Positions 3,370 through 52,160 of a stretch of 64,000 nucleotides of DNA are shown here, in pieces (position 1 is the stretch's first letter; every line of letters starts with the position of its first letter). Made by a program: the position numbers and the translations under genes. The DNA is from Icerya purchasi (taxonomy: Eukaryota > Arthropoda > Insecta > Hemiptera > Monophlebidae). The notes under the pieces are model-generated. The model worked only from the letters and a program-made list of their open reading frames with translations, was not told where the DNA came from and made no database searches. The stretch lies in contig CM077116.1 of the NCBI GenBank assembly GCA_039619475.1, forward strand, positions 19,589,443-19,653,442, given 5' to 3'.

Positions 3370-4583
3370 GGATAATCCAAAAGTAGGAAGGAACTGGTCC
3401 CCTGCTCTCATTAGTGCCGTTGGGCGTAGTATATTATGAAAAGCTTAATTTCACAGTCCATGATACCTAATCCAGGATATTCATGGAACTTTCTTTACTT
3501 TACTAGCATTGTATTATCAACTTCAGCTGAGACATTAGCAATCAATAATATACACAAGGTTATAAAACTTTATTGTGCGAAGAATTTAGTATCCAAATGA
3601 CATGACTTTGTAAAGCATAAATTAACAGCTGACTTAGTAATGCACGTACATGAAATGAATGAATAGTCAGAGAAAGAATTTTAGGTAGATTATATTTGTA
3701 CTGATTTTAGTAGAGCCTTCGATAAGGTAAATTATTTACTTTTAATAAGAAATTAAAAATCTGCGGAATAGCAGGTAGTTTTATCAAACTAATTAAATTC
3801 TATCTTCATTCCAGTAAATCGTGTGTGCCTTATAATCGGTATCATTCTGACAAATATGTGGTCACATCAGGAGTTCCACAAAACTCACATACCTTGTGAT
3901 CTATTATTATTTCTCATCTTTATTAACGATATTGATAGAAGTATATATTAGCAACAGATTTCTTACGTTATCAGATAATTTAATAATTTATACATCAAAG
4001 TAAAAGACCTAAGTTTTAATTATTTTAAATGCGCTTGTATTACATTTTGTCGCAAGAAACGGAAACATTCATATAATTACTTAATAAAAGGCCTGCTAAT
4101 AAGAAGCGATAGGCGTACTCCAGATTTAGAACAGTATGTGGGTTCTGCGCTAACATTCTCAACGCACATAAATTATATTTGTAAACGGGCATATAAATGT
4201 TTAAAATTTCTTATTCCTAATTCCAAGTTATATATTGGGATAAAAACACACTTATCTTTCTTTACAATAGCCTTGTAAGAAATTATAGAACAAATTCAAT
4301 TCCCGTTTTTCAAAAAACTTATATAACTAAGGTTTATCTGAAATATATTATGTATGTTAAAACTCTAGAGAGTAGAAAAACGGTAGGTAAATTAAAATTT
4401 GTGCATAATATACGTAATAATAGAATCAATGATGATTATCTTCGTTTTAAAATATTTTTTAAAGTACCTAAGCCTAGCGTTGGAGTTTCGCGTGTCCTTT
4501 TGGTTCCTCAATTCCATACAACTGGCATAATGAGCTCTTCTTTAGTATCTTCATTAAATTTATACAAAAGAACACTTACGTAA
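3370..4583 (+). pseudogene. Decayed LINE reverse transcriptase, jockey/CR1-like
   Basis: Translations of the plus strand, with many frameshifts, give RT blocks in the right order: HDFVKHKLTADL near 3598-3640, YICTDFSRAFDKV near 3690-3730, a GVPQ-like stretch near 3870-3900 with FLIFINDID after it, and a C-terminal block (4350-4583) ending in the VPKPSVGVSRVLLVPQFH type of tail found after the RT of CR1/L2-like LINEs. The TDF.(K/R)AFDKV wording matches the fragment at 96-638, so both may belong to one family in opposite orientation. No intact frame remains. Confidence 0.6.
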
Positions 4584-4665: not shown

Positions 4666-6984
4666 TTTTTTTTTTTCCATTGTACCGACAGCAGTCTGCC
4701 GTAAACAATGGTGATATAAGAATATAAGGGGGGGGGAGTGGAATGAATAGAAAAGGAAACGGAAACGAATATTAACCTGACAGTTCCAACGAAATACCCG
4801 ATTCAGGTCTTAAGAAGAAAATGGTTTATTTATCCTTTTTTTATTTATTTATTTTTTTTATTTATTTTTTTTATTTTATTAATTTATTTATTTTCACACT
4901 ACATAACGATTATGCGTAGTGTCTCCGAGAGCAATATAATAGCGCTTAAGTTATCGGAAGTGCATCCCGACACCACTTTTTCCTTTTCAGTCGCCGGCTG
5001 GAACATCAATAGTGAACATTCGGTATATAAGTGGATTCGAGCTAAACTGAAGTTTCTCAAAGAACTTTTTGTACTGTTCCGCATAAACATCATTCACGTA
5101 TGGAACATTCAAGTCCGCATGCAATGTGTCGTTGGATACGAAATAAGGCGCAGATACCATTATACGGAGAATCTTGGACTGCTGTTGCTGTATCCTAAGG
5201 AGGTTGCTTCGACATGTTGTTCCATATAGCTCTAATCCATATCTCCATATTGGAGCGATAACCGATAAATATACATTCCGCTTTACGGCCAGGTTTAGAA
5301 CTTGATCACGCCACGTTAATCGTCTATCCATATGCATTCCAAGATAGCGCACGGAGTCTACTTTTGGAATTTGCGAGTTCTCAAATTTCAAGTGTGAACA
5401 TCTTACTCGTCTGTTTGTGAATAAAATGTGACGACATTTAGTTGGGTTGAACGATATGCGCCAGAGGCATGCCCATTTCTCTAGCCTATTCAGATGATTT
5501 TGAACAGCAGCGTTTGCATACGTAACATTCGTATTAGATGCGAGTATCGCAATGTCATCAGCGAATGTAGCTAGTAACGTTAGATTAGAAATTGGTACGT
5601 CCGCGGTATAGACGGAATACAATAAAGGCCCTAGCAAACTGCCTTGAGGTACTGACGATCTGATTGAATGTATTTCCGAGAGTGAATCCTTTATTTTAAC
5701 CACAAACGAGCGTTCGGACAAGTACGATTTGAGTAACAGATAAATATCTTCATTAAGAATTTGCCGAAATTTATACAGAAATCCTGGATGCCAGACCTTA
5801 TCGAATGCCTGCGTGACATCTAAAAACACCGCGGAACATACCTCGCGTTTCTCCAACGTTAACGAAATTGCGTCTACTAATCGGTGACACTGGCTAATCG
5901 TAGAGTGATCCGTGCGAAAACCAAATTGATGATTCGGTAGCACATCTCGGTTACTTATAACTGGATCAATACGATTTAAAATTAGCTTCTCCAAAACCTT
6001 TGATAAAGGGGAGAGCAAGCTAATCGGTCGATATGATGAAAGCTCTGTCCGCGGTTTCCGCACTTTATGAACCATCATTATAATCGACTTCTTCCATATT
6101 TTAGGGAAGTACCGCATCCTTAGAACCGCATTAAAGATATAACAAAGAAGAATAGCTGCTCTCCGCGATAGTCGCGAGATTATTTCTCCAGTAATTCTAT
6201 CGAAGCCAGGAGCCTTACGTAGTGGTATATTTCGAAGGCATACGAGAACTTCTCTCGGCGAGAAGACCTTAGTAGTTTGTTCACACCGACGAGGTTTTTC
6301 CAATGCTCTTTGTATATAGTCAGAATGCTCCTTATTGCGATCAGAGTGTGGTGTAAAGACCGTGTCAAGATGGTCCGCAAAAGCATTTGCCTTTTCCTTG
6401 TCTGTTTTAACCCAAGTGTTGTTCGATCTAATATTATATGGTTCTTCTGATTGACTTAACAGTTTTTTAACTGACGTCCATACAGGCTTTTCCCCATCGT
6501 TAATGGACTGCGTGTAATGATTAAAAGTTTTATTTTTGTACTCCTTGATTCTGATCTTTAGTTTGTTTTGCAACTCTTTGTATCTGTTGTATAAGGATGG
6601 GTAACGACCACGCTGCCATCTCCTTCTTGCTGACCTGGTTTCTTTTATTAATTTTCTTATTTCTACGGGTATATACAGGTTTTGAAAAGATTTTTTTGAT
6701 ACGTGATTGGTAGAATTATTACACGCATATTCTATGAGATTAGAAAAGTTCTTGACGACTATGTCAATGTCATTTGTGTTCTTTAGTTTGATCTTCAAGT
6801 CAATATTATTTTCAATTATACTTGAAAAGATATTCCAGTTAGTGGTATGATTTTTAAGTCTCTGCTGATTGAGTACGGTTTTAGGACTTATACCTAAGGT
6901 GGCAACCACTGGAACATGATCGGATGACAGATCGATGATTGTTCTGCATTCCCTGTCGTATCTTTGAAGGCCACGATGGTACAT
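4666..6984 (-). mobile_element. Jockey-clade LINE, 5'-truncated copy 1
   Basis: The minus-strand 3' end is the T run at 4666-4676 (a poly(A) tail on the minus strand). A 3' UTR and the ORF2 C-terminus follow, and the copy stops at about 6980 inside the endonuclease domain, keeping only its last block (SSDHVPVVATL). It is a diverged relative of the copy at 46010-49900: same ORF order, same C-terminal KWCRDALPIT, similar UTR start. Truncation at the 5' end is the usual product of incomplete target-primed reverse transcription. I could not identify a target-site duplication. Confidence 0.85.
4987..6984 (-). pseudogene. Jockey ORF2 (endonuclease tail + reverse transcriptase), copy 1
   Basis: A 665-residue frame. 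Residues about 18-34 hold the end of the AP-type endonuclease (DLSSDHVPV). The RT runs from about residue 240 to 510: YRPISLLSPLSKVLEKLI, FGFRTDHSTISQCHRLV, VFLDVTQAFDKVWH, SSVPQGSLLGPLLYSVYTAD and the catalytic FADDIAILAS, all intact. Compared with the second jockey copy it lacks about 23 residues between RRLTWR and VKR in the C-terminal region. A frameshift after VPAGD puts the conserved ending KWCRDALPIT out of frame (it is readable at about 4951-4980). There is no start codon of its own; the element is dead as it stands. Confidence 0.88.
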
Positions 6985-44702: not shown

Positions 44703-45477
44703 TAACCGACTTCAAAAAAGGAGGAGGTATTCAATTCGACTGTATTTTTTTTTTTTTTTTTTTTATGTGTGTTACCACAAAACTTTCTTCTAGATGAACC
44801 GATTTTGATGATTCTTCTTTTATTTGAAAGGTGGCGTTTGTCATGTGGTCCCATTTAAATTTGATCAAGGTCCGACCGATAGTTTTTGAGTTATCCTTAA
44901 TAATGCGGGAGATTGAAGCTTTTTGGATGCTTTTCATTCATGATTGTTTTCACCGTCGGATTAGATTTTTGACTTAAAATACTATAAATTTGCCAAATTA
45001 CCATGGAAATGTAGCTTTTGGTGTTTTTACCGTGGAAATAAATGTTTTAATTTAATTGAATAAAAATGCACTAAAAAGTAAAAAATAAAATGCTTTTTTA
45101 CAAAAAATAAATACCGACTTCAAGGTTTATTATAAAAATTTAAAAATGCACTAAAAAGTAAAAAATAATTACTCCCGATAAAATATATATATATCAGAGT
45201 GATATAACTTAAAGTGATATCGTAATTCTTATACAACATTAATTTTTTGGAGTTGGCATCAAATTCATATTAAAAGAATAATTAAAAACTGCATTAAATG
45301 TTGATTAAATTGTTCCTAACATGAATTTAATTCCAACTCCAAAAAATTAATGTTGTATAAGAATTACGATATCACCTTAAGTTATATCACTCTGATATAT
45401 ATATATTTTATCGGGAGTAATTACTTTTTACTTTTTAGTGCATTTTTAAATTTTTATAATAAACCTTGAAGTCGGTA
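44703..45477. repeat. Dispersed insect repeat with ACCGACTTCAA termini
   Basis: It begins ACCGACTTCAAAAAAGGAGG AGG, then TTCAATTCGACTGTA, a T run and a block around ATGAACCGATTTTGATGATT. I have seen this arrangement as a common insect interspersed repeat. The right end is the inverted ACCGACTTCAA at 45467-45477. Non-coding; class uncertain. Confidence 0.5.
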
Positions 45478-45505
45478 TTTATTTTTTGTAAAAAATCATT
45501 TTATG
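45086..45505. repeat. Long near-perfect palindrome, about 183-bp arms
   Basis: 45086-45268 and 45321-45505 are reverse complements with very few mismatches, around a loop of about 52 bp. Landmarks: ATACCGACTTCAAGGTTTAT, ACTCCCGATAAAATATATAT and TTTTTTGGAGTTGG in both. Part of the left arm (AAAAATGCACTAAAAAGTAA) is also repeated directly just upstream at about 45063. Confidence 0.85.
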
Positions 45506-46009
45506 TATTATTCTTTTTCTTTATTACTTCTTTCTTTCTTCAAAATAAGGCAATAAGCAAATTACACCAGTAAAGAAACCAATCGATATATTACATGATT
45601 AAAAGAACATTAATTAGAAAAGTCGTAATAAATCACGTCAGAGGTTACCCTTTTTTTTATCGTCAACAGTAACACCTTCGATGCTGAATTTCAATGAAAT
45701 TCACGAATTCAAATTATAAATTAAGGCATTTCTTTGTATAATACTTACCGTCAGAAAAATTCAAATATGAAATTTGTTAACCGTTTCCAATTTATTACTG
45801 TCCCTCATAAAATATTTGTATCCTCATTTCACATAATAATATTACTATAGTAATATCATTTTTACATATTCTGCTACATACACTAATATCTCATTAAGAA
45901 AAATCTGCTCTTTCTTTGGTATATTATTAATTGATATTGATAATGTTATCATTCATTCTTTTCGGTTCCTGAAATTTGGAATTCTTCACAAATTTCGTAA
46001 ATCTAAGGG
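45506..46009. other. No gene seen
   Basis: AT-rich spacer before the poly(A) end of the jockey element. Confidence 0.4.
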
Positions 46010-46274
46010 TTTTTTTTTTTTTTCTTTTTTTTTTACATTGCACCGGAAAACCATAAGCAATGCTGATCACAAGACATGCTTAAAGGGAGTAGAGTGAAAG
46101 GGAGGAAAAGGGAATAGTAAACTGGGAACACCAAGGAAAAAGAAATAATTGGAAGGCCGATGATAAGTCTGGTAACCCCTATGGGACAACAGACTAAGTT
46201 TAAGGAAGATCAGACTCTAGTCATGGAGAGGTAACATCAGGAGACAGTGATATCTAGTCGGCAATCCGTATTTA

Positions 46275-48752
46275 CTAGGTGATCGGAAGTGCATCCCGAC
46301 ACCATTTTCTTCGTTTGAAACGTCTGGGCGGATTTCCTGGTACATTTGGTTGATACATACGGCTGATGTTCGGATTTGTACTGCACTTCAGCTTGTCGAA
46401 AAACTTCCTGTACTGCTCCACATAAATATCTTTTACAAATAGCACTTGCAAATCTGTGTGTAGTGTTAAGTTCGACACGTATCTTGGCGCGGAAGTAATA
46501 ATCCGAAGTATCTTTGACTGCTCCCTTTGAATCTTCAATAGATTTGATGTTGCAGTTGTCCCGTACAGTTCCAGCCCGTACCTCCAAATGGGCGCTATCA
46601 TTGTTAAATATAGTTGACGCTTGACATTTAAGCTCAAGGTCGATTTTCTTCCTATTAATGGATATAATAACCTACATCGATTAGAGACTGTTTTCTTAGT
46701 CTGAATGACATGATGCCTCCATGTAAGCCGTCTGTCCAAATGCATCCCAAGATAACGAGCTGAGTCAACTTGTGGGATTGTTGAATTACAAATTTTCAAA
46801 ACAGGACAGGTAACGTGTCTATTCGTAAATGTGACATGCTGGCTTTTAGCTGGGTTAAAACTTATACCCCAAAGCCGTGCCCAGTCTGCCATTCAATTTA
46901 TATGACTCTGAACTGCAGCATTAGCATATACTGAATTTGTGTTTGATGCTAGTATCGCTATGTCATCAGCAAATGTGGCGAGCACAGTCTGATTCGATCC
47001 AGGCATGTCAGCTGTGTAAACCGAGTATAATACTGGGCCAAGTATGCTCCCTTGCGGGACCGACGACTGAATGTTATGTTCTTCCGAGATTGAATCATTA
47101 ACTCTGACGGTAAATGTTCTACCATTTAAATACGATGTTAATAGCTTGTGCAGGTCAGAAGGAACGAACTGTTTGAGTTTGTATAGCAACCCTGCATGCC
47201 ATACCTTATCGAAAGCCTGGGCAGTGTCGAGGAAGACCGCCGAGCATACTTCATTTCTTTCAAATGTCGAAGAGATAGCGTCAACCAATCTATGGCATTG
47301 TTCAATAGTAGAATGTTCAGAACGGAAGCCAAATTGGTGATCCGGGATTATATGATATTTATTCAAAATTGGATGTAGACGACTTAAGATAAGCTTTTCG
47401 AAGACCTTTGAGAGAGAACAAAGTAAGCTAACTGGTCGGTAGGAGAATACATCTGTTTCAGGTTTTCCTACTTTACGAACCATTATAATCTCCGATTTCT
47501 TCCACATATTTGGAAAGTAGCCGATTCTAAGCGAGCTGTTGTATACATAACACAGCAGGATGGCCGCTTTACGCGGGAAGTGTCGGACAATTTCCGCCGT
47601 AATCTTGTCGCATCCAGGAGATTTCCTTAAAGGTGTATTTTGGAGGAATTCAAAAACCTCTCTCGGCGCAAATACTTTAGTCCTATTATGAGCCTGCGAG
47701 CGTTCCTCCAAGACCCTCTGCACTCGCTGTATGTGGTCTTGATCAGCATCTAACTGAGGTGAGAAGACTATAGACAAGTGATTTGCAAAAGCATTTGCCT
47801 TGTCTTTATCCGTTTTTACCCAGTTACTATTCACTTTTAAATTAAAAGGTTCTTCCTTCGTCTTCATCAGCTTCTTTGCTTTATACCATAGAGATCTATT
47901 ATCATCGTTAAATTGGTGCAACTTATAAGTAAGAATTTGATTCTTATATTCACTTAGTGCAGCTTTCAACTTGGCTTGTAAGGTAATGTACCTAAGCGTA
48001 AACGAGGGATAACGATTACGTTGCCATTTCTTTCTGGCCGCCCGGGTATCTCTAATTAATTTCCTTAACCCGATTGGGATAAAGATGTTATATCCAAATT
48101 TATTAAGATCATAATTTGTAGCCTTATTGCATGCATCTTGCACCAGAGAAGTGAAATCCTTCACTGCAGCATCAATGTCATTTGTACTTTTTAGCCTAAT
48201 CTTCAGGTTGGTATTATTCTCTATTATATTTGAGAAGATGGTCCAGTTTGTAGTTTTGTTGACGAGTGTCCGTTGTTGCGATATCATTTTGGGATGCGAG
48301 TTTACCACAGCAATCACAGGCACGTGATCTGAGGATAGATCAACAATGGTATTACAGTCTCTGTTGTATGACTGAAGACCGCGAATAATAAAGAAATCTA
48401 AAATATCCGGATGCCTGTCGCAGTGGCTAGGCCAGTACGTCGGGGTCGTCGGAGACAAAACACTAAGAAAGTTATCATGTATTGCTTTAGCTAGCCTTTT
48501 TCCCGATTGATTAGTTATCCGAGATCCCCACTCGCTATTCTTCGCGTTAAAGTCTCCGCCACAAATGAATTTATTCCCAAGGTGTTTAAAGATTGCATTA
48601 AATTCAGCCTGCGGTATACGAAACTCACCATGGCAATAAATCGCAGCTATTCCAAATTCACTCGAAAGTGTCTCCATATTCACTGCCACGATTTGGTATG
48701 CATCCGAGGAACGTGAGAAGTTTTTGTACTGTTTGTAACAGTTTTTAATCAT
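46275..48752 (-). pseudogene. Jockey ORF2: partial endonuclease, reverse transcriptase, C-terminus
   Basis: One frame with a single TGA at 46893-46895 (619 + 205 residues). It starts mid-endonuclease: FICGGDFNAKNSEWGSR (about residues 62-78), TYWPSHCDRHPDILDFF and DLSSDHVPV; the first part of the domain is missing. RT: YRPVSLLCSLSKVFEKLI, FGFRSEHSTIEQCHRLV, VFLDTAQAFDKVWH, SSVPQGSILGPVLYSVYTAD, FADDIAILAS. After the TGA (copy 1 has Arg there, so CGA to TGA is likely): MADWARLWGISFNPAKSQ to the end KWCRDALPIT. Reverse transcription is the role of the family; this copy is broken. Confidence 0.88.
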
Positions 48753-49798
48753 TAGCTTGCGGGGTGATTCCCTTCACATAGCGCACATATGGCTGGTTCT
48801 GATGCGTCCCTAGGACAAGATTTTGTATCGTGACGCCCAGCACATTTAACACATCTTGGCGGTAAGTTGCAAAAGTTTGCCGTATGACCCAGTAGCTGGC
48901 ACCTTTTACATTGATGCAGCCTAGAATTTTTATAGGGTTCTTCGACTACGACGACAGTGTTTAAAATACGAGTAACTTGAAATATGTCCTGATTTTTTGT
49001 AGATGGCTTTAAGTCCACGAAGAACATCGGAAGAGGTTGTTTGGTTTGATTTTTTAAGATATTAATAATTCTGATTACTTCAAATCCCTTTGTGCGTAAT
49101 TCATTCGTTATATCTGTTATGTCAGTAGAAGAGTGCAGGTTTTTTAAAACTACCCTAAATGGTTTCTCCTCCGCTAGTGAGTATGTATAATAAAAATAGT
49201 TATTTTCCTTTAAAGCTTTAATAACAGCGCGATAGCTTAACGGATTTTGTGTCTTTACTGTTATGCCCGTTAGAGTTGATTTTAACGAGAACTGAACATT
49301 TTGTAAAGTTAATAAAAATTTTCTAAAGTCAGTAAATTTTTGAATATTTTTTACCATTATCGGCGGTGGTAATTTTATATTTTTGTTAATACTGGGCTCA
49401 TTCATTTTATCGTTATTTACTTTAGTAACTTTTTCCCCACTTTCCACATCGCTTATGTTATTAATGGGAGCGTGTGTATCAGTTTGCATTTGATTTTCGT
49501 CTTCATTAGCGAGAAATTTAAATATGTTAACTTTCACCGGTTTATTATTATGAATGGAGACAGTAGTACTATTAGCTAATTTCGCCGTATGTTTTGGTGT
49601 TTGCCAAGTATCGTCGCTATCGCTTGTTTGCGTATTAGAATGCTGTCTCTTGACAGTGTAGCCGGTGTTATCCTGTTTACGAATAATTTTAACAGGACTT
49701 ACCCCACGTGAATTCGATGCAGAAGAAGAAGCAGCTACTGCCGTAGTAGACGCGCCAGTCGGCCGTTTTACAATAGAAAGAGTGGCCGGCGTTGGCAT
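48752..49798 (-). CDS. Jockey ORF1, gag-like nucleic-acid-binding protein, C-truncated
   Basis: 348 residues. A Ser/Thr/Asn-rich N-terminus (about 1-140) is followed by the PRE/C2HC-associated domain (about 150-280; FRVVLKNLHSSTDITDITNE, LPMFFVDLKPSTKNQDIF) and zinc knuckles near the end: CKRCQLLGHTANFC, CVKCAGRHDTKSC and the start of a third (CALCEGNHPAS). The frame ends right after this third knuckle, where jockey ORF1 proteins normally continue, because the internal deletion brings in ORF2 sequence. Stop and ORF2 start overlap as TAATG. The family packages the element RNA. Start chosen as the first ATG before the low-complexity region. Confidence 0.85.
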   Translation of the reverse strand: MPTPATLSIVKRPTGASTTAVAASSSASNSRGVSPVKIIRKQDNTGYTVKRQHSNTQTSDSDDTWQTPKHTAKLANSTTVSIHNNKPVKVNIFKFLANEDENQMQTDTHAPINNISDVESGEKVTKVNNDKMNEPSINKNIKLPPPIMVKNIQKFTDFRKFLLTLQNVQFSLKSTLTGITVKTQNPLSYRAVIKALKENNYFYYTYSLAEEKPFRVVLKNLHSSTDITDITNELRTKGFEVIRIINILKNQTKQPLPMFFVDLKPSTKNQDIFQVTRILNTVVVVEEPYKNSRLHQCKRCQLLGHTANFCNLPPRCVKCAGRHDTKSCPRDASEPAICALCEGNHPAS

Positions 49799-49920
49799 GA
49801 TAAGTTCGATTATTCGATAACTTGTCTGGTATAGAGAGAGTTATCGAAGTTAAAATAAATGCAATAAATACGAGCGGTCTGGCGGAGCCAGCCGATAAAG
49901 GAAAGATCTCACCTGCGTTA

Positions 49921-51009
49921 TCAGCGGTCGGCTATGTATTTCTGTTCGATCGAATGATAAGATAATATACAGCCCGGAATAATTACCGATGCGCGACTAT
50001 TATTACAGAGGCCGAAATATGTTCGAGAACAATAGCAAAGAATTAACATGCACGAACGCGATGAACAAGACTTCACTTTAACATAACTACGATTGGTTCC
50101 TCTAGCGTTTAAGATACTTAACTCTGGTGTTTGTAGTAAGCGATTCTGCAACTCCAGTAGCTGTTGCGTGGTGGTATTCGAGAATTCTAGCTCTTGTTCG
50201 TGAGGTGTTCTGGGTGGTAGAGGTTCCGCCGTATAGGATGTGGACACGATCTCCGTGGTTAAATTCGATGAATGTGGGGATTTGTGTCCATGTAAATCCT
50301 CGGCGTTTCCAGTCGGCGGCGTAACACTCCGCGTGTAATACGAACGTGTACCAGACTCCTTCTGATGGCGTTTCGTCCGTATCGCATGGATTGGTATCGG
50401 TCGTTTCCGTGGTGTGAATAGTTGACGGACAGTAGGTAGAAGTGGGTGTTGGAAGTTTCGAATTTTGTGTTGAATTAATGTGATCCAGTCCTGTGGTGTT
50501 GTCGCTAATGGGTGATGAGTGATTACGTTGGTTTGTAAATCGGTTATCTCTAGTTCCCGACTGAGGATTACATGTAGAACTTCTTCCGTCGTCGTTGTCC
50601 GATATGAGCGGACTGGTGCTTTCTCGTTTCCGAATTGGATGAACGTTTCCAATGGACGCGAAAATGCTGCCATCGTATCTAGGGTTTCTCGTATTAGCGT
50701 TTCCCTCATTATCCGACTGCTGATGTTGGTTAACGTTAATATCCAAATGTTCTGATATATGTGCCGGGCTAGTGTTATGTACGATATTAGTCGGTTCAGT
50801 GGTTCGTGGTATCGTTGGTGATCGTGGTGATCGTTGTATAGATCCATGAGCATGTTGAGAATCGATTGATTGTTCAGTTCGGTTGTGGAGGTTTTCGATT
50901 GTATTATTATCATGTACCGACGAGGTGCGATCGGGACTTGTTTGTTGTGTTTCAATATAGTCGGATATTCGGACGGAGTTTGCACTTGGTCTATCCATAG
51001 TAGCGCCAT
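49921..51009 (-). pseudogene. Overlapping ORF A of densovirus-like element (362 codons)
   Basis: It opens at the first ATG after the leader intron (51007-51009; MALLWIDQVQTP), 11 nt before the start of ORF B and in another frame, and overlaps ORF B over its whole length. It has a fairly normal composition with Leu/Ile-rich stretches (LMDLYND, YITLARHIYQNIWILTL). In densoviruses an NS2-type protein is read from such an overlapping frame by leaky scanning, which is the basis for this label; I do not recognise the sequence itself. Codons beyond about 50101 probably come from other DNA past the viral break, so the true length is uncertain. The ATG and first 51 codons are duplicated at 51998-52160. 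Confidence 0.5.
50102..50998 (-). pseudogene. Densovirus NS1-like N-terminal region (ORF B, 298 codons), endogenous viral remnant
   Basis: Starts at 50996-50998. Residues about 1-210 are a Ser/Thr/Asn/Asp/His-rich, probably disordered region. Residues about 214-298 look folded: GVWYTFVLHAE (214-224), a Trp/Arg segment, and HGDRVHILYGG (248-258), followed by a helix-like Arg/Ala stretch. Parvovirus NS1 proteins have a nickase domain with a His-hydrophobic-His type strand in this position. Assignment rests on this resemblance plus context (terminal hairpin, spliced leader, paired overlapping starts), not on a database match. The frame ends at 50102-50104, long before the helicase domain an NS1 would have, and no helicase or capsid coding is seen in the window. 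Defective. Confidence 0.55.
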
Positions 51010-51190
51010 ACTCTACAATTGAGAGGAGGAGGAGGATTAAAATTTTTACGATTAAATAATTTAACGGAGGTGTTAGAAGTTAGAAATTAACTCGCGGTGT
51101 ATAAAAAATTTGTTAGGACTTAGAAAAATTTCTACTTACCGATATTTATGCAATCTCGTAAAGCCGCTGTCGAACACGGGAAATTCGTGT
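50847..51190 (-). repeat. Inverted-repeat arm 1 (344 bp): leader, intron and start of NS-like ORFs
   Basis: It is the reverse complement of 51817-52160 with about two mismatches seen (one in the polypyrimidine tract, one in codon 46-47). It contains the short leader, the 127-nt intron and the first 51 codons of ORF A and 48 of ORF B. Beyond 50847 the two copies diverge abruptly. Confidence 0.95.
51013..51139 (-). other. 127-nt leader intron (arm 1)
   Basis: Donor ATCG|GTAAGTAG at 51140/51139; branch-like TTCTAAC repeated twice; a pyrimidine run (TCCTCCTCCTCCTCTC) and acceptor TTGTAG|AG at 51013/51012, just 3 nt before the first ATG. Reads as an intron in a 5' leader, removed before translation of the overlapping ORFs. 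Inferred from consensus, not from transcripts. Confidence 0.65.
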
Positions 51191-51270
51191 AGCAGTGAAA
51201 ACACGCGCAACTAGGAATGCCGTGTTCACAATTCGTGTGATGCGAACACTCGTATTGGAACATTATGTGA

Positions 51271-51277
51271 TTTTATA
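51271..51277 (-). promoter_or_regulatory. TATA box of the NS-like unit
   Basis: TATAAAA on the minus strand, about 130 nt before the leader donor. It lies in the minus-strand copy only; the plus-strand copy starts after this point and so lacks a promoter. Confidence 0.45.
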
Positions 51278-51449
51278 CGAACGGTACGGTATTATATAGT
51301 AAATTTCGCTGTTAAATACGTAATACCGATTCGTGTAGTAATGTAAACCACTTTTTAATAATTCCGTCCGATTTCTCAGTTAGTCAGGAAAAACCGGTGC
51401 TTCCTCATCCTCTTGAAGAGATCGGAGGTTAACTCCTACCTCCATAGTC

Positions 51450-51620
51450 TGGAGGAGGAGGACTGGTCGAAAAAACGGGAGTAATAAATTAAACGGAGGT
51501 TGTTGGAAATATCGGTAAGAAATGAAGGTTAACTGGAACGTATTTAAATGAGATGAATAAATTACGGACTTAGAAAAATTTTCGTAAATATTTCTGGTAA
51601 ATAAATTATTTAGTAGAAAA
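51450..51620 (-). repeat. Diverged extra copy of the leader-intron-ATG region
   Basis: On the minus strand it reads AAAATTTTTCTAAGTCC, CAACCTCCGTTTAAT and CCTCCTCCTCCAGACTATGG, the same order of blocks as in the arm 1 intron and start, with many changes. After that ATG (51454-51456) a 21-codon frame runs to a stop near 51391. It looks like an old tandem duplication upstream of the promoter. Confidence 0.5.
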
Positions 51621-51679
51621 ACAAAAACAACCTTCCGAACTAGTAGTCGCAGTCGATAGTCCGCCCTCCAAAAAAAAAG

Positions 51680-51815
51680 TTATTTTTTTTCTCTTTTCTT
51701 TGAAAGAATATTTACTATTTTAGTTAAAACATCTTTTCATAGAAAAGTAAAACATTGTTTTAATGTTTTAACTAAAATAGTAAATATTCTTTCAAAGAAA
51801 AGAGAAAAAAAATAA
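51680..51815. repeat. 136-nt T-shaped palindrome, parvovirus-type terminal hairpin
   Basis: A perfect 53-bp stem (51680-51732 with 51763-51815) encloses two contiguous small hairpins: CTTTTC-ATA-GAAAAG (51733-51747) and TAAAAC-ATT-GTTTTA (51748-51762). Every base of the 136 nt has a place in the structure. Parvovirus genomes end in palindromes that fold in just this T form and prime DNA replication. It lies 1 bp from arm 2 and about 490 bp from arm 1. Confidence 0.85.
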
Positions 51816-51816
51816 C

Positions 51817-52160
51817 ACACGAATTTCCCGTGTTCGACAGCGGCTTTACGAGATTGCATAAATATCGGTAAGTAGAAATTTTTCTAAGTCCTAACAAATT
51901 TTTTATACACCGCGAGTTAATTTCTAACTTCTAACACCTCCGTTAAATTATTTAATCGTAAAAATTTTAATCCTCCTCCTCCTCTTAATTGTAGAGTATG
52001 GCGCTACTATGGATAGACCAAGTGCAAACTCCGTCCGAATATCCGACTATATTGAAACACAACAAACAAGTCCCGATCGCACCTCGTCGGTACATGATAA
52101 TAATACAATCGAAAACCTCCACAACCGAACTGAACAACCAATCGATTCTCAACATGCTCA
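51817..52160 (+). repeat. Inverted-repeat arm 2 (344 bp), plus-strand copy
   Basis: Carries, on the plus strand, leader 51817-51867, intron 51868-51994 (donor ATCG|GTAAGTAG, acceptor TTGTAG|AG, also 127 nt) and the two start codons (51998 and 52009). It ends at 52160, where non-viral AT-rich DNA begins, 270 bp before the NXF1 start exon. Confidence 0.93.
51868..51994 (+). other. 127-nt leader intron (arm 2)
   Basis: Same length and splice sites as the arm 1 intron; one C-to-T difference in the pyrimidine tract. No promoter precedes it on this strand, but transcripts entering from the left could use its donor or acceptor. Confidence 0.6.

Follow-up and report, generated by a model that had tools for sequence, protein, structure and literature searches.

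A probable densovirus telomere with a T-shaped tip, and related copies, in the genome of Icerya purchasi

The window analyzed here is a 64-kb stretch of a 497-Mb scaffold of the scale insect Icerya purchasi, whose published assembly comprises 1,103.38 Mb in two chromosomes with a scaffold N50 of 601.66 Mb (PMC11183206). It contains, near a multicopy Jockey element, a sequence of 136 nt (51680–51815) that folds completely upon itself. The question is whether this hairpin is the end of a parvovirus and, if so, how such an end came to lie in a host chromosome. Endogenous parvoviruses are already well known in insects. We regard the hairpin as a telomere of an endogenous densovirus (parvovirus), with a probability of about 0.9.

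The hairpin and the sequences around it

The fold of 51680–51815 reproduced the 53-bp stem and the two contiguous 6-bp hairpins with 3-nt loops that the original prediction had described. Its energy was −56.7 kcal/mol (z −17.1), and none of 200 shuffled sequences was equally stable. An extra pair, 51679/51816, lengthened the stem from 53 to 54 bp, giving a T-shaped hairpin of 138 nt (51679–51816, no strand assigned) in which the stem is perfect and the two side hairpins occupy 51733–51747 and 51748–51762 (both read on the plus strand). A pattern of two adjacent hairpins (arms 5–8, loops 3–5) above a mismatch-free stem of 10 bp or longer was matched in the full 64-kb window by this hairpin and by (AT)n repeats near 61.68 kb, whose stems measured 10–12 bp, and it was absent from 20 first-order Markov simulations of 64 kb. 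A known RNA family was rejected as the identity of the hairpin, since nothing at 50–53 kb scored above the Rfam gathering score.

Two overlapping open reading frames on the minus strand (49921–51009 and 50102–50998) ran away from the hairpin, which sits in the expected orientation relative to the starts of NS1 and NS2. The former included an NS2 frame (50104–51009) and the latter the N-terminal piece of a densovirus NS1 (50104–50998); both were open, and the homology of both stopped at about 50104. Because the window frames themselves matched no Pfam family (E up to 1, transposase families included), they were named through sister copies: NS2 and NS1 were 57 and 45% identical, respectively, to the copy at locus L009, and the nearest other genomic copy of NS2 was 67% identical. 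The NS1 frame had no relative in the phages or viral_contigs collections. With densovirus NS1 and NS2 starts adjoining the hairpin, the proposal of a parvovirus-type T terminus in a host chromosome was borne out.

The window copy had neither the helicase half of NS1 nor VP homology, and at two sites in its HUH nickase region it departed from residues invariant or nearly invariant in 13 aligned relatives (by eye). From the altered HUH positions and the missing helicase half and VP, we infer that a complete NS1 could not be made by this copy. The cut NS genes were abutted by a Jockey-type non-LTR retrotransposon (46010–50094, minus strand) with PRE_C2HC, endonuclease and reverse transcriptase, and no NS1 homology was seen on its far side. 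Four other Jockey copies compared were 98.7–99.3% identical to it, and the matches ended within 18 nt of the same point. All four held about 655 nt that were missing from the window Jockey at 48753/48754, between its two main ORFs. Near the 3′ end of this element, 45073–45518 formed a 446-nt palindrome (91%) with no match to the fetched viral loci.

The hairpin was flanked asymmetrically by an inverted repeat of 344 nt (50847–51190 and 51817–52160). Its arms were 99.4% identical, with two mismatches, at 50869 and 51021 against their partners. According to the inverted-repeat comparison, the first arm (minus strand) comprises the leader and the first codons of NS2 and NS1. The second arm (plus strand) repeats the leader and NS start in inverted form, thus holding a second NS2 start, and begins where the outer palindrome arm is cut. 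The remaining inner palindrome arm and the 5′ untranslated region, 488 nt in all (51191–51678, minus strand), were present on the NS side only. At the joint 51816/51817, the palindrome ended and the inverted leader began with zero shared bases (by eye). The viral portion stopped at 52160, and the sequence past this point matched none of the other fetched viral loci. Inspection by eye revealed no target-site duplication at 52160 or at either end of the Jockey element. The hairpin is therefore joined to an inverted viral copy, rather than forming the single clean end that had been assumed.

T tips and densovirus loci across the genome

A similarity search of the genome with the hairpin gave at least 13 matches at no fewer than 11 places, and NS or VP homology was present around all 11. 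Searching with NS2 yielded 116 matches; since 23 of them (manual count) belonged to the Jockey part of the query, about 93 were viral, counted as matches rather than loci. Loci were chosen by resemblance to the hairpin (L008–L012 and L017–L019), as neighbours (L013–L016 and L020), or by NS2 homology (L026–L037). Tips were scanned with up to 5 substitutions in 13 loci plus the window, and with up to 6 in 11 of L026–L037 (L027 left out), the counts covering the fetched loci. Eighteen T tips were found, in the window and in 13 of the 24 scanned loci, every one of them in loci with densovirus genes. The hairpin, which the original prediction had treated as unique, thus has similar tips at many places in the genome. 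Eight of the ten tips of the first scan were identical over 29 nt, and those of the second differed by 1 to 5. The Pfam family Parvo_NS1 (PF01057) was matched in L008 and in two pieces of L010, and AdSDV_VP1 (PF25662) in L008 and L010; the long NS1 frame of L009 matched neither. NS and then VP were colinear on one strand (monosense) in L008, L012, and L030.

Several arrangements of viral genes were observed at these loci. A cluster of NS and VP pieces from at least two lineages was located at C1:525.04–525.16 Mb (L013, L008, L014, L015, L009, L010, L016, L035, and L036). The two L008 tips were 97.5% identical over 202 nt, and the matched parts of the adjacent units were about 66–69% alike. In the second lineage, an ORFx of 279–320 aa preceded NS (L010:6665–7624, L010:3194–4030, and L016:1451–2410), with no Pfam match for the 279-aa copy and no homologue of the 320-aa copy among 535 protein candidates. 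Head-to-tail units of 4,581 bp (NS, VP, and T tip) were found in L030 (C1:567.705–567.715 Mb), where two units differed at 9 sites and palindrome arms of at least 258 nt occurred at two joints. A tandem NS array with a period of 2,103 bp occupied L026–L027 (C1:534.233–534.253 Mb), and 10 NS2 matches recurred at this spacing. Among nine units compared, eight differed from the first at 5–10 sites, and the NS1 frame was stop-free in eight of the nine. No VP match was found in L026, and the array is possibly an amplified or co-opted NS gene. A tandem array of about 5 kb, with 7 NS2 matches, was seen in L029 and at C1:330.28–330.31 Mb, with no tip in the 10 kb scanned. In L011, inverted repeats of about 100 nt (4420–4520 and 6362–6455; 82%) bracketed an NS piece with long palindrome arms. 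They started just past the NS1 break, and the NS matches ran slightly into the inner copy. A second viral inverted copy was rejected here, as the outer side gave no viral tblastn match.

The palindrome arms of the Icerya copies reached lengths of 156 to at least 258 nt. Both arms reached at least 156 nt in 7 of the 18 copies (L010, L011, L028, two in L030, L033, and L037). One arm was short in 10 copies: 62 nt in L017, 54 in the window, 48 in L032, 31 and 0 in L009, 24 at both L008 tips, 14 in L018, about 8 in L012, and none found in L035. In the first L030 copy, the arm was clipped by the fetched stretch. The short arm was the NS-distal one in 7 of the 9 copies with an assigned NS strand, the exceptions being the two L008 tips. 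The window terminus had been described as intact; it is incomplete, its outer arm stopping 54 nt from the tip. Breakpoints also cluster within the terminal hairpin in AAV-2, where 91.6% of the reported junctions lay in the outer 120 bp of the terminal repeat and viral–viral joints occurred, although AAV-2 is a human dependoparvovirus and the junctions came from a cell population rather than a germ line (PMC3918229). The short arms and this likeness indicate that the window hairpin represents the innermost portion of a longer telomere, which was severed where such telomeres tend to break.

Covariation was analyzed in 12 of the 18 tips. Near-duplicates (L008a and two of the three L030 copies) were taken out, and L009b, L012, and L035, which have no outer arm, were also omitted, an omission that favours pairing. 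Both sides changed in 16 of 20 stem pairs (12 of 20 in an earlier set of seven copies) and in the closing pair of each side hairpin, and 93.2% of the cells were paired. None of 500 shuffles reached four of the five measures and 2 of 500 reached the fifth, while pairing fell to 46–63% in slid controls. When a palindrome replicates, each arm serves as template for the other. The covariation therefore shows that every copy was truly palindromic at the time of capture, and it is not evidence of host selection.

Ten of the 12 side-hairpin pairs never varied among these copies, five of six in each hairpin, which suggests that the conserved tip may have been a recognised element in the virus. The motif GATAGTCCGCC lies in the NS-side arm of the window copy (51655–51665, plus strand) and is a candidate NS1 recognition or nick region. 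It or a one- or two-base variant was located 56–91 nt from the tip in 16 of the 18 copies; it was absent in L033, and L008b held only a distant two-base variant that was not counted. At the ninth stem pair from the tip, an A·A or T·T mismatch was seen by eye in both L008 copies, L009:5681, L011, and L012, and the position was paired in the window, L017, and L018. The mismatch could be a bubble. Bubbles occur in other parvovirus ends.

The tips were found in both orientations. Among the 16 with a manually assigned NS strand (two of the 18 were unassigned), 7 pointed one way in the NS sense and 9 the other. Because the three L030 and the two L008 copies are tandem duplicates, these represent about 7 and 6 independent events. 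L017 (427.98 Mb) and L018 (124.53 Mb) shared 94.7% identity across the 1,545 bp of NS and untranslated sequence that lead up to the tip; the 30-nt tip was inverted between them, and their outer flanks differed. The two loci are a natural flip/flop pair. Inversion of the terminal palindrome is an established product of hairpin transfer in parvoviruses (PMC12297876).

Affiliation of the source virus

The source virus is best explained as a monosense densovirus related to brevihamaparvoviruses and to Acheta domesticus segmented densovirus (AdSDV). The NS1 piece of L008 had 62 matches; those named at 39–40% were Mosquito densovirus HB-3 and Aedes albopictus densovirus, and two further matches were named Brevihamaparvovirus and "Ambidensovirus sp.", one each. 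In an NS1 tree built from 29 of 66 available rows, with no other parvovirus genus as named outgroup and a long-branch warning elsewhere in the tree, 8 of the 9 Icerya pieces formed one clade (100/100) and the L010 piece stood apart. A VP search gave four relatives, the best at 42% over 76%. Searches of viral_contigs with the sister NS1 or VP, the tip, and the NS1 alignment found nothing, so that this collection offered no free-living relative or known terminus for sequence comparison.

Mosquito brevihamaparvoviruses have a monosense NS–VP order and T-shaped ends. They include the best named NS1 relatives of the L008 copy, and the Icerya sister copies share the monosense order. However, the NS1 identity is about 40%, the Icerya pieces form a clade of their own, and the Icerya copies are endogenous. 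The termini of AdSDV are T-shaped and 208 and 220 nt long (PMC10267136), and VP of the PF25662 family occurs in the Icerya sister copies. The AdSDV genome is bipartite, and each of its two segments is flanked by T hairpins (PMC10267136), whereas NS and VP are colinear in Icerya (L008, L012, and L030) and the palindrome arms there extend over 156 to at least 258 nt.

Two other hemipteran systems were compared. A partial densovirus telomere was previously seen in the whitefly Bemisia tabaci, where an EVE of BtaDV carries a partial flip-flop palindrome (41/55 nt) and the NS1/NS2 start codons (PMC12297876). However, BtaDV is an ambisense member of Densovirinae with I-shaped hairpins, the report deals with one 1.4-kb integrant and shorter NS1 pieces, and no flip/flop pair is described in its available text (PMC12297876). 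The genome of the gall aphid Schlechtendalia chinensis, a sternorrhynchan, contains 115 endogenous parvoviral pieces, but these are mainly VP1-like and NS was reported as not detected; a text search of the available part of that paper gave no mention of inverted terminal repeats (PMC10759679).

Origin of the inverted repeat and implications

Here, a densovirus is proposed to have multiplied in the scale insect through rolling-hairpin replication and to have been captured in the germ line. The end of a viral strand would fold into the T hairpin and prime copying, so that the copied end would transiently become a head-to-head turnaround in the order NS, leader, palindrome, leader, NS. A deletion or copy-jump before or during capture would have removed 488 nt of one side, taking the untranslated region together with the distal portion of one palindrome arm. 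The product would have been cut inside NS1 and joined to the chromosome. The remnant would comprise the NS1/NS2 start, the leader, the NS-side arm with the T tip, 54 bp of the opposite arm, and the inverted leader with its NS start. The structure probably derives from such a turnaround intermediate, and the order of events and the end joining are putative steps of this account. Another turnaround-like structure is L019 (C1:86.06 Mb), an older inverted NS arrangement with arms 69–77% alike (one part 97.5%) and NS matches on both strands.

A recent formation of the inverted repeat is favoured by the two mismatches in 344 nt between its arms. The insect mutation rate is about 3e-9 per site per generation. 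The arm divergence of 0.58% (2/344) would correspond very roughly to one million generations (Poisson range about 0.1–3.5 million), and gene conversion would make the repeat look younger than it is.

The repeat might instead have been produced in the host, by rearrangement of the palindrome after integration, with the hairpin still a densovirus telomere. It would fit this explanation that the 344-nt arms break off at no particular point within NS1 and that cruciform-forming palindromes are generally prone to recombination. However, viral–viral joints were reported in 15 of 100 AAV-2 integration sequences (PMC3918229), and an older inverted NS pair exists at L019; a host rearrangement is thus possible but doubtful. 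A fold-back artefact of assembly or sequencing is very unlikely. Palindromes can mislead long-read assembly, but the arms differ at two sites and one of the sides lacks 488 nt, unlike in a simple read fold-back. Similar palindromes were present at other loci, and the published assembly was made from PacBio HiFi reads with hifiasm (PMC11183206).

It is extremely improbable that the palindrome belongs to a foldback element or another transposon with no relation to parvoviruses, even though inverted repeats abound in the window (1,258 pairs of at least 25 nt) and a retrotransposon abuts. The T tip with its covarying stem is common to densovirus loci, it was present in 6 of the 11 loci picked by NS2 homology, and the NS1/NS2 start adjoins the window hairpin. 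A foldback transposon was rejected on account of the viral genes at the tip-bearing loci. The original prediction had named the occurrence of this hairpin at many sites, next to the ends of unrelated transposons, as the finding that would speak against it; many sites were found, yet all of them had densovirus NS or VP homology, as judged from the 11 places of hairpin similarity (a lower bound) and the 18 tips in the fetched loci. Maintenance of the hairpin by selection, for example as an NS1 binding site or as a dsRNA source acting against related viruses, would account for the perfect 54-bp stem, the 99.4% identity of the inverted NS-start repeat, and the two overlapping frames that are still open. 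Youth alone explains all three, however, and some of the other palindromes come close to this perfection (in L028, one mismatch and one gap across 175 pairs), which makes selection quite unlikely. It had been suggested that an exact end indicated recent capture or selection: the two differences in 344 nt support the former, subject to gene conversion, and the latter was not upheld, as youth suffices.

It is also conceivable, though unlikely, that this densovirus lineage is a hairpin-ended mobile element, with working telomeres, NS1 supplied in trans, and endogenous copies that are re-copied and re-inserted. If so, it would yield dispersed near-identical flip/flop pairs such as L017/L018 and tandem arrays whose units are nearly identical (2,103 bp, nine units compared; 4,581 bp, two units compared).

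From parvovirus biology, long T telomeres of either orientation are to be expected. The matches listed in a search of the open-access literature included neither densovirus elements with T-shaped ends in scale insects nor a single germ line holding long T telomeres of both orientations. In transfected cells, every JcDV integrant that was characterised was reported to be scrambled (PMC5978394). Integrated densovirus DNA is often rearranged, and the Icerya genome keeps a series of T telomeres that stem from diverged lineages and point either way; some of them are complete, and others have one arm cut. The parvoviruses known from aphids, mealybugs, and psyllids have been described as all ambisense (PMC12297876), and an AdSDV-related monosense lineage is now placed in a hemipteran. 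These germ-line copies allow the terminal structure, the conservation of the tip, flip/flop replication, and the breakpoints to be read, and together the captured pieces preserve how the virus copied and inserted its own ends.
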